From Evansella cellulosilytica DSM 2522 (lineage in GTDB: Bacteria; Bacillota; Bacilli; Bacillales; Salisediminibacteriaceae): 64,000 nucleotides of DNA. Under the pieces are notes generated by a model, which saw only the letters and a list, made by a program, of their open reading frames with translations, had not been told where the DNA came from and did no database searches. Shown here piece after piece: positions 55,104 through 57,763 of the stretch; positions within the stretch are counted from its first letter, which is position 1; each line of letters starts with the position of its first letter. The stretch is taken from assembly GCF_000177235.2 (NCBI RefSeq), contig NC_014829.1, positions 3,286,001 through 3,350,000 on the forward strand. The letters are read 5' to 3'. The translations under genes and the position numbers were made by a program.

Positions 55104-55493
55104 ATGACAACTTTTTTCTTATTAGCATCATTCATTTACGCAATTGCTAGAAAAAAAATAACATTAACACCTGTAAAAAAGGAAGTACCACCATTATCAA
55201 AGAGCACACGTGCTATTTATGATTATATTACAGGAAAGGGATACTATGTCAGTTGTTCATTGAAGTATGGTTTATTAACAATCCCTTTATGTTTAAGACC
55301 ATTCAAGATAGCCTTATTAAAAAGAAGTACTTTTTCAAAAATAAAAAAGTGGTATTTATCCTTATTAGGTTGGAAGGTGTTTGTTGTTGCATTTGAAGAT
55401 TATGAAAAAGATGAGGAATTAAAAAGATTATTACAAATAGTAGAAAGGAGAAAAAGTTTCTTTAAAAGTGACCATTATAAACAAACCCCGTAA
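55104..55493 (+). CDS. Hypothetical protein, basic, possible membrane anchor
   Basis: 129 residues. N-terminal hydrophobic stretch TTFFLLASFIYAIA, then a Lys-rich region and YDYITGKGYYVSCSLKYGLLTIPLCL, GWKVFVVAFEDYEKDEELKRLL. The mid part (GKGYYV..., YGLLTIPL) reads like a small alpha/beta fold with nuclease-like strands, but I cannot place it in a family. GAAGGGGTG seven to eight bases before the ATG. Followed by a repeat and terminator. Confidence 0.55.
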   Translation: MTTFFLLASFIYAIARKKITLTPVKKEVPPLSKSTRAIYDYITGKGYYVSCSLKYGLLTIPLCLRPFKIALLKRSTFSKIKKWYLSLLGWKVFVVAFEDYEKDEELKRLLQIVERRKSFFKSDHYKQTP

Positions 55494-56164: not shown

Positions 56165-56194
56165 AATACCACTTCTTTGTGAAGAAGTGGTATT
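56165..56194 (-). terminator. Terminator of the sigma/SpoIIP-domain operon
   Basis: Perfect AATACCACTTCTT / AAGAAGTGGTATT with loop TGTG. The minus-strand side runs into TTTCTTTTTTTT. 94 nt after the operon's last stop. Confidence 0.85.
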
Positions 56195-56287: not shown

Positions 56288-57163
56288 TTAATTATTATCA
56301 TTTAGAATTTCACTAATTATCTCCGCTAAGTATTCAGCAGACTGCTTAACTTCCTCTAACGTGTTATATACGCCACCAATATCAATAAGGATAGATTTAT
56401 CATGTAAATCTTGATTATAATTGCGATCAGTAGAAGCTAGTAAAAGGACTCCTCTTGATAGTTCAGGATAACGTTCCTCAAGAAGTTCATGGAGTTGTTT
56501 AGCAAACTCTGCATTTTTTTCATAGTTGAAATGATTTTCACTAACTATAAAACCTATTTTTGCAACTTCCTCATCATTAATTGTGGTAGTTGTTATATTA
56601 CGTGGGAGACTATCACGATGAATATCTAATAACATTTTTATACTGTGATGATTATTTAAAACAGTGTTTATATTTTCCCTAGCTACATTATAGGATTCAG
56701 TATATTCAAGATTTTGTTCTTCAAGCATTTTCGTGTAATCTGTATCATCCCATAATACTGGAATACCTTTACTTTCTAATGTTTCCCCTAAATGTTTTCC
56801 TAATAAAGTAACATTAACTGTTTTATCATAAGCTGTGGCAAGGGCGTTATCATCCTTCCAATCTAATTCTGGAAAAAACGATTCGTGTGTGTGGGTATGG
56901 TAAATATACACTAATGGCTCTTCAGTATTTGTTAACGTCTGTTGTTCTTCAAATACATTGTCACTACTTATAACTAATAAAAAGAAAACAATACTAGCAA
57001 CTATCGTCACTATACCAGGTACAAGTAATTTGTTTTTGTTTTTTCGTGTAAAGCGGTGAACTAGGTTTTCTTCTAACTCTTTTTCAAAACCTTTTCGAAT
57101 TAAAATAGAATCTTTATTTCTTCTTAAACTATCTATTATATCTTTATCATCTTTACTTCCCAT
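56288..57163 (-). CDS. Membrane protein with SpoIIP domain, putative anti-sigma partner
   Basis: 291 residues: a 45-residue charged cytoplasmic N-terminus (SLRRNKDSILIRKGFEKEL), one transmembrane helix at about 46-66, and an extracellular SpoIIP/amidase-like domain at about 84-288. Conserved SpoIIP elements: YIYHTHTHESFFP (His89, His91, Glu94), LLDIHRDSLPR (about 179) and the C-terminal IDIGGVYNTLEE, where Asp261 replaces the Glu usual in such amidases. Not the sporulation SpoIIP itself: it is shorter and overlaps an ECF sigma gene by 11 nt, the place normally held by an anti-sigma factor. I infer a wall-sensing or wall-cleaving regulator. Confidence 0.8.
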   Translation of the reverse strand: MGSKDDKDIIDSLRRNKDSILIRKGFEKELEENLVHRFTRKNKNKLLVPGIVTIVASIVFFLLVISSDNVFEEQQTLTNTEEPLVYIYHTHTHESFFPELDWKDDNALATAYDKTVNVTLLGKHLGETLESKGIPVLWDDTDYTKMLEEQNLEYTESYNVARENINTVLNNHHSIKMLLDIHRDSLPRNITTTTINDEEVAKIGFIVSENHFNYEKNAEFAKQLHELLEERYPELSRGVLLLASTDRNYNQDLHDKSILIDIGGVYNTLEEVKQSAEYLAEIISEILNDNN

Positions 57164-57704
57164 TATTAAGCCACCCTTCTCCTTTAGAATCTCCTTCTGT
57201 AACCATCTTTTGTCTAAGTAGCTTCAGTGCCCTATGATAAGAAACTTTAATATTTGTTTCTGAACAATTTAAGATTGTAGCGGTTTCTTTTATGGAAAAC
57301 TCATTTATCCCTCTAAGAATAACGATCATTCTATAACTAGGTTTTAATTCCTGTAAATAGTTATAGACCTTTGATATAGATTCCTTATGTTCCACAATCT
57401 CTTCTGTAGATTTGTTATTTGATGGAACAAAATTTAAGAATAAATCCCCTAAAATCATTCTCCTTTTTATTTTACGATAATGGTCAACCGCAACATTTCT
57501 CGCAATAGAAAATATAAATGTTTTTAATTCTGATTCTCCTTTAAACTTAGAAATAGATTTAAATAACCTAATAAAAACTTCTTGAGTTAAATCTTCGGCT
57601 TCATCATGATTATTTGTAAATGAAACAATAAAATGGTAAACCTCTTTAAAATATTGCCGATAGATTAGACGAATTTCTTCCTCTGTATTTATTTGTTCGT
57701 TCAA
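57153..57704 (-). CDS. ECF-type RNA polymerase sigma factor
   Basis: 183 residues. Sigma region 2 (FKEVYHFIVSFTNNHDEAEDLTQEVFIRLF, listed here as the segment 18-47: VYHFI... DEAEDLTQEVF) and region 4 (YRMIVILRGINEFSIKETA, ILNCSETNIKVSYHRALKLL). TTG start behind GGGAGGGG. Resembles SigX/SigW-group envelope-stress sigmas. It has a matching promoter of its own at 57738-57763, so positive autoregulation is likely. The downstream overlapping gene encodes a membrane SpoIIP-domain protein instead of a classical zinc anti-sigma factor. Confidence 0.9.
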   Translation of the reverse strand: MNEQINTEEEIRLIYRQYFKEVYHFIVSFTNNHDEAEDLTQEVFIRLFKSISKFKGESELKTFIFSIARNVAVDHYRKIKRRMILGDLFLNFVPSNNKSTEEIVEHKESISKVYNYLQELKPSYRMIVILRGINEFSIKETATILNCSETNIKVSYHRALKLLRQKMVTEGDSKGEGWLNNGK

Positions 57705-57737
57705 ATTTTCCCCTCCCTTAAATTCAATTTCTAATTA

Positions 57738-57763
57738 GTCGTACCAGCTAGGAAAAGGTTACA
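57738..57763 (-). promoter_or_regulatory. Candidate ECF autoregulatory promoter
   Basis: Minus strand TGTAAC (57758-57763), 16-nt spacer beginning CTTTTCC, then CGAC (57738-57741). B. subtilis SigX-type promoters are TGTAAC-N16/17-CGAC. It ends 33 nt before the sigma start codon. Confidence 0.7.

Follow-up and report, generated by a model that had tools for sequence, protein, structure and literature searches.

Why does the gene for a membrane protein with an outer SpoIIP domain overlap the gene for an ECF sigma factor in Evansella cellulosilytica DSM 2522? The two genes lie in the window, i.e., the entire stretch of 64,000 nucleotides that was analyzed (NC_014829.1, positions 3,286,001 to 3,350,000). 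We consider it probable that the SpoIIP-domain protein acts as an anti-sigma factor in the membrane, and that a peptidoglycan amidase domain, repurposed and often weakened, serves as its outer part; the protein's sigma binding, ligand and activation are predicted. The gene order and its conservation, the gene overlap, the promoter, a shared tail, an amidase fold and a putative catalytic Glu that 10 of 24 family members have lost were established computationally and are described below. Features of the window are on the minus strand unless stated otherwise.

The ECF sigma gene and its membrane partner

The ECF sigma factor gene (57153..57704) encodes 183 amino acids from a TTG start codon, and a Pfam search of the protein revealed the domains Sigma70_r2 (E=9.7e-19) and Sigma70_r4_2 (E=2.8e-13). 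Direct reading of the sequence places a ribosome-binding site, GGGAGGGG, at 57710..57717, with the TTG start downstream. The gene of the membrane protein, the proposed anti-sigma factor, was defined by its ORF and by family searches (56288..57163; 291 amino acids, ATG start). According to the first-pass annotation of this DNA, the two genes overlap by 11 nt, and the ORF coordinates agree (57153..57163). A perfect inverted repeat followed by a T run on the same strand, found by eye at 56165..56194, is likely the terminator of a two-gene operon. Both genes are intact. Outside this operon, a plus-strand ORF of 129 amino acids in the window (55104-55493) matches the RAP domain weakly, at 19.7 bits where the cut-off is 24.2.

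The claim that the membrane protein carries an outer SpoIIP domain was confirmed by two profiles above their curated cut-offs. PF07454 matched residues 73-284 (E=8.3e-67, 226 bits against a cut-off of 24.4) and TIGR02867 scored 212 bits (cut-off 123). Pfam, the structure model and Foldseek together assign the outer SpoIIP/amidase domain to residues 81-291 (56288..56923). A transmembrane helix at about residues 48-72 (56948..57022) is predicted from the model helix and the translation, with K/R-rich residues before it, on the inside. Residues 1-47 (57023..57163) would form a cytoplasmic tail, the proposed sigma-binding domain, for which the model predicts helices at residues 4-15 and 26-43 in a region of low confidence. 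We infer an architecture of an inside domain, one span and an outer domain. The 47-residue tail is basic and has no Cys; no anti-sigma domain was recognized in it in Pfam or NCBIfam, and the Cys residues of the zinc type are absent. Pfam found no match in the window protein to DUF3298/DUF4163, the domains carried by RsiV, and neither Pfam nor NCBIfam found an RsgI domain in the window proteins. Positions 1-70 of the SpoIIP profile, corresponding to the canonical N-terminus, were unmatched in the window protein, and a sequence search of solved structures with this protein returned 0 matches.

Sequence reading and a pattern scan identified a predicted autoregulatory promoter, with the -35 element TGTAAC at 57758..57763 and the -10 element CGACTAAT at 57734..57741 (TGTAAC-N16-CGACTAAT, 57734-57763, minus strand). 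The shorter form that had been annotated earlier, TGTAAC-N16-CGAC, is present at 57738-57763, 33 nt before the sigma start codon. TGTAAC[C/T]T was found upstream of the sigma gene in all 22 intact ECF-SpoIIP pairs that we collected (see below). The strict pattern TGTAAC-N14-18-[CA]GA[ACT]N[AT]AT occurs in 19 of these 22; at the remaining three, TGTAACTTTT is accompanied by a -10 element that has diverged. Such a conserved promoter before the sigma gene is the expected signature of an autoregulated ECF gene.

The genome search for this promoter, suggested as a check in the first-pass annotation, recovered the sigma factor's own promoter, while no wider regulon stood out. The best promoter match is the sigma factor's own operon. 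A loose pattern gave 5 sites in the E. cellulosilytica genome compared to 4 in the reversed control. A stricter pattern, applied to 20 pair-bearing genomes, gave 43 sites compared to 18 in the control. Eighteen of these 43 sites lie before sigma genes of the same family (16 pairs, the locus L138 with a different partner, described below, and an interrupted gene in genome G375), and 8 precede other ECF genes by their coordinates. The leftover 17 are at control level, so that no wider regulon is visible in the 20 genomes at the stringency of this pattern. With up to 3 mismatches to the window promoter, its own genome contains 11 sites compared to 1 in the control; plausible candidate targets among them, named from reading their translations, are a GerM-like lipoprotein, another ECF gene and a small lipoprotein. 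The copy before the GerM-like lipoprotein gene (G000:C1:341022-341051, L189) has 2 mismatches and lies 18 nt before this candidate target. The regulon may be small, or it may use looser promoters.

Recurrence of the pair

An ECF gene combined with a tail-bearing SpoIIP gene was found at 24 loci, and the neighborhood survey for ECF-SpoIIP pairs that had been proposed earlier thus returned the same gene order many times over. The loci come from at least 20 of 397 genomes of the order (among the matches listed; more divergent cases may be missing), from one more genome of the genus (G014), from two genomes of another order of the same class (G645 and G588) and from Niallia taxi, where the locus is on the megaplasmid pMEGANia. 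The ECF gene lies directly upstream and is intact in 22 of the 24, and these intact pairs represent 11 family groups and Niallia. A chance neighborhood is ruled out by this conservation. The overlap of the genes is again 11 nt at 10 of the 21 other intact pairs and 0-50 nt at the remainder, given the start codons as used. The sigma orthologues upstream of the SpoIIP partner scored 265-309 bits in the window genome and 17 other pair-bearing genomes (18 pair sigmas; G408, G196, G367 and Niallia were left out of this comparison). Among related bacteria, only a minority carries the pair, and these carriers are scattered.

In two of the 24 loci the sigma gene is interrupted. The gene in G375 is split over two contigs, probably as a result of an insertion: its promoter half is on C183, and region 4 is on C185 (L038 / L156), where unrelated DNA precedes it. 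The sigma gene of G084 (L053, about 2676-2852) contains an insert of ~180 bp with inverted ends like GGCACTGAAAAAG, and the SpoIIP gene there is intact.

A profile of the short, tail-bearing form matched over its full length, including the tail, in 18 genomes of the order (E<1e-87). G196 and G367 have divergent full-length matches with scores within the range of canonical SpoIIPs; canonical SpoIIPs themselves match this profile only from about position 66 onward. None of the 67 loci with a distinct canonical-length SpoIIP had an ECF match nearby, within flanks whose median length was 981 nt on the upstream side and 1467 nt on the downstream side. These 67 are mostly the best-scoring loci per search and not a random sample, and the upstream stretch examined was at least 801 nt at all of them but one (L059, 66 nt). 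SpoIIP genes without a sigma partner, which the first-pass annotation had named as potential evidence against its reading, were confined to these 67 canonical genes and one short, tail-less gene. The latter (L231, 1714-2679, in G243) encodes 321 amino acids with a hydrophobic N-terminal stretch, has no ECF neighbor and represents a separate kind. A scan of genome contigs gave one match, a distant SpoIIP with 28% identity and no ECF match nearby.

Two further observations concern the distribution of SpoIIP in general. Genomes of family group f68 (e.g., G436, G528 and G651) contain several SpoIIP matches each, some in frames of ~600-700 amino acids, far beyond the canonical length. Of the 35 genomes of family f1, 11 were not matched by the SpoIIP query; they point to a loss of sporulation in genera g2 and g7.

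The window gene might have been an unusual copy of the sporulation gene spoIIP. This candidate was ruled out, as the canonical copy is located elsewhere in the genome. The genome (4.68 Mb, one contig) contains two SpoIIP matches, the window copy and a canonical one at G000:C1:1775034 that adjoins a gpr-like gene, named from reading the neighbor's translation. The window gene has neither the gpr neighborhood nor the full canonical N-terminus, in agreement with the earlier statement that it is distinct from the usual spoIIP at the gpr locus. Furthermore, all 23 pair-bearing genomes that were searched (Niallia left out) have one or more SpoIIP matches besides the short form, and the short form is therefore probably not the sporulation SpoIIP in these genomes.

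The outer domain and its active site

The AlphaFold model of the membrane protein has a mean pLDDT of 79, with blocks from residue 121 on mostly at 87-98. The model is weak in the tail, where block means are 45-64, and around His91 (57-70 for residues 91-120). Ten Foldseek matches had E<=0.001; the titles of nine name an amidase and that of the tenth a phage 'EAD'. The matched structures are of the amidase_3 type (CwlD, AmiB, Ami1 and others), with modest TM-scores of 0.37-0.48 by query length.

For Clostridioides difficile SpoIIP, PMC6221140 describes two His residues that are required for cutting, and reports that no bound zinc was found. By motif order, His91 (56891..56893) and His182 (56618..56620) are the putative counterparts of these catalytic His residues. 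In the alignment, both are invariant in all 24 members of the short family, and so is Glu94, another putative active-site residue. In CwlD, zinc is bound via His49, Glu65 and His133, and Glu199 is described as the putative catalytic residue (PMC8496864). A profile-profile comparison with two amidase_3 proteins of the E. cellulosilytica genome lined up LI[D/E]IGG with LVEVGF at a probability of only ~2%. Because this match is weak, the assignment of the Glu in the canonical LIEIGG motif as the equivalent of CwlD Glu199 rests on motif order, the fold and the CwlD paper, and we call it putative.

This putative catalytic Glu is kept in 67 of 67 canonical SpoIIPs. In the short family, 14 of the 24 members have Glu at the corresponding position 261, 6 have Asn, 3 have Asp and 1 has Gln; the window protein belongs to the Asp group (Asp261, 56381..56383). 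On one quick tree, at least 7 changes are needed to explain this pattern, and reversals could be among them. With Asp in place of the putative catalytic Glu, catalysis by the window protein is doubtful, and the E-to-D change could leave some activity. The Glu kept in 14 members indicates that catalysis may matter in many of them, while the pattern in the other ten suggests that binding was kept and catalysis is dispensable.

These data also bear on a rival reading, in which the anti-sigma factor is at the same time a working amidase. The released or induced protein would cut peptidoglycan and so alter the wall that it senses, acting as sensor and effector. The invariance of His91, Glu94 and His182 and the Glu present in 14 members speak for it, as does the finding that the best promoter of the sigma factor is that of its own operon, so that activation would yield more SpoIIP protein. 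Against this stand the replacement of the putative catalytic Glu in ten members, including the window protein, and the at least 7 changes on the tree. We regard a dual function as rather unlikely, and prefer the reading of an anti-sigma factor with an often weakened amidase domain. A more specific version of this preferred reading is put forward tentatively, as we give it somewhat less than an even chance. A sporulation amidase domain would have been captured as the ectodomain of an ECF anti-sigma factor. Repeated loss of the catalytic Glu, with the rest of the active site retained, would then have turned it into a dedicated pseudo-amidase receptor for peptidoglycan, in a direct cell-wall-to-sigma signaling pathway scattered in bacilli and found once on a megaplasmid.

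The tail, related systems and a proposed mechanism

Genome G163 contains a SpoIIP pair and, at L138, a second sigma gene of the same family, which scored 270-271 bits (265-309 for the scored pair sigmas) and has the same strict promoter as the SpoIIP pairs. A sigma tree placed it among the SpoIIP-linked sigmas (SH-aLRT 87, not decisive). The overlapping partner at L138 has the same tail and span and an outer domain that is not SpoIIP. A profile built from the tails of 20 SpoIIP partners was searched against 284 ORFs (first 90 residues) from 33 ECF stretches without a SpoIIP pair, among which L139 and L154 are one place. Ranks 1-3 of 284 were the ECF partners at L138 (3.5e-15), L149 (2.4e-5) and L139 (2.9e-4), all of which adjoin related ECF genes and have outer domains other than SpoIIP; the other ECF partners in the 33 stretches were unmatched. 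At rank 4 the profile matched not a partner but an ECF sigma gene (L113, E=0.003); reversed sequences gave 0.54 at best. Given this sigma gene at rank 4, the matches of L149 and L139 lie close to the noise and are weak. Mainly through L138, the tail looks like a module that was joined to outer domains of different kinds, and anti-sigma factors have this anatomy. The L138 partner may be a decaying gene, because its outer domain seemingly ends early via a frame change and the downstream ORF looks like its continuation. A lipoprotein encoded in the window genome is weakly similar to this outer domain (E=9e-5 in a single comparison). The affected stretches in G163 are L138 1110-1511 and L151 2576-3316, and the ORF downstream of the shortened partner seems to belong to the same lipoprotein-like family. 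A mirror-tree analysis gave a distance correlation of 0.77 between sigma and tail and of 0.73 between sigma and ectodomain; the two values hardly differ and reflect common descent.

Together, the conservation of the pair and the tail on other ECF partners support the first-pass view of an ECF sigma factor with a membrane SpoIIP partner whose tail could hold it. Its remark that ECF sigma factors normally pair with zinc-type or RsiV-like partners was too general, since the partners that the other ECF genes have in this genome are of many kinds. Judged from their translations, most of these genes are overlapped downstream by a partner built of tail, span and outer domain. This observation and the tail findings also weigh on the idea that the SpoIIP protein is merely an output of the sigma factor, a stress-induced wall hydrolase, with the true anti-sigma factor encoded elsewhere or absent. 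Operon-mates of an autoregulated sigma factor are often its targets, and the active site is kept in many members of the family. Nevertheless, some related ECF genes have partners that combine the same tail with outer domains other than SpoIIP, and the overlapping downstream slot is usually filled by a tail-span-outer-domain partner in this genome, which makes a pure output gene very unlikely. Least probable of all is a decaying relic with no present role in this genome, as the E-to-D change at position 261 and the interrupted sigma genes at two other loci might hint, since the window genes are intact with a promoter, ribosome-binding site and likely terminator, and 22 of the 24 pairs are intact across 11 family groups and Niallia.

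If the protein is an anti-sigma factor, it can be compared to several known systems. With the class I ECF anti-sigma factors (RseA/RsiW type), it shares the gene position, the inside domain and the single span that characterize them. Class I anti-sigma domains are longer than the 47-residue tail, which also differs in having no recognized anti-sigma or zinc motif. In class I proteins, helix 1 contacts sigma region 4 and helix 4 contacts region 2 (PMC7406223), and the two short helices predicted in the tail could be a minimal form of this dual contact. RsgI of Clostridium thermocellum is similar in its N-terminal inside domain, its one membrane helix and its outer sensor, a role that enzyme domains can fill (GH10 and an S1C peptidase-like domain are examples; PMC12203970). 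However, RsgI controls sigma-I and not an ECF sigma factor, its outer domains bind plant polysaccharide, and SpoIIP is not named in the available part of that paper. Since RsgI shows that enzyme domains can be anti-sigma sensors, the window protein would be a variant with a SpoIIP ectodomain on an ECF anti-sigma factor. RsiV of Bacillus subtilis, the ECF anti-sigma factor of sigma-V, is itself the sensor of lysozyme (PMC4183432), and a similar double role as anti-sigma factor and sensor of an outside ligand is proposed here. The outer domain of RsiV is unrelated, and its ligand is a wall enzyme, whereas the proposed ligand of the window protein is the wall itself. By sequence, the module belongs to neither system, although its working would resemble both. 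With SpoIIP, the engulfment amidase/endopeptidase, the window protein shares the PF07454 domain and, by motif, the active-site His pair. It differs by a tail and span in place of the ~170-180 N-terminal residues of SpoIIP, by an ECF partner in place of the gpr neighbor and by the Asp at the putative catalytic Glu position.

We propose that the two genes form an autoregulated ECF sigma/anti-sigma module. The 47-residue tail with its two short helices would keep the sigma factor inactive at the membrane, and the outer SpoIIP-type domain would be reused as a sensor that binds a wall fragment, a wall protein or other partner, or, as we infer, peptidoglycan. A change at the outer domain would lead to release or destruction of the tail, presumably by proteolysis; the signal might cross the membrane through signal peptidase, the route taken by RsiV, or through proteolysis of another kind. 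The freed sigma factor would then transcribe from TGTAACYTTT-N-CGAMTAAT promoters, its own operon first and perhaps a few others, amounting to a small regulon.

A literature search covering titles and abstract openings found no description of an ECF-SpoIIP pair; the main ECF reclassification paper possibly mentions one. The word SpoIIP is absent from the available part of PMC7406223, and the passage of PMC3426412 that was retrieved concerns SpoIISB.

The route from the state of the peptidoglycan to transcription is only partly known in Gram-positive bacteria. RsiV binds the attacking enzyme (PMC4183432), whereas here the wall-cutting domain itself would stand in the place of the sensor. The natural variants with Glu, Asp, Asn or Gln, together with the swap of the outer domain, offer material for testing binding versus cutting. 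A sporulation enzyme domain is reused away from its usual locus, and the data suggest that in these bacilli a wall-cutting domain has been reused as a cell-wall sensor.
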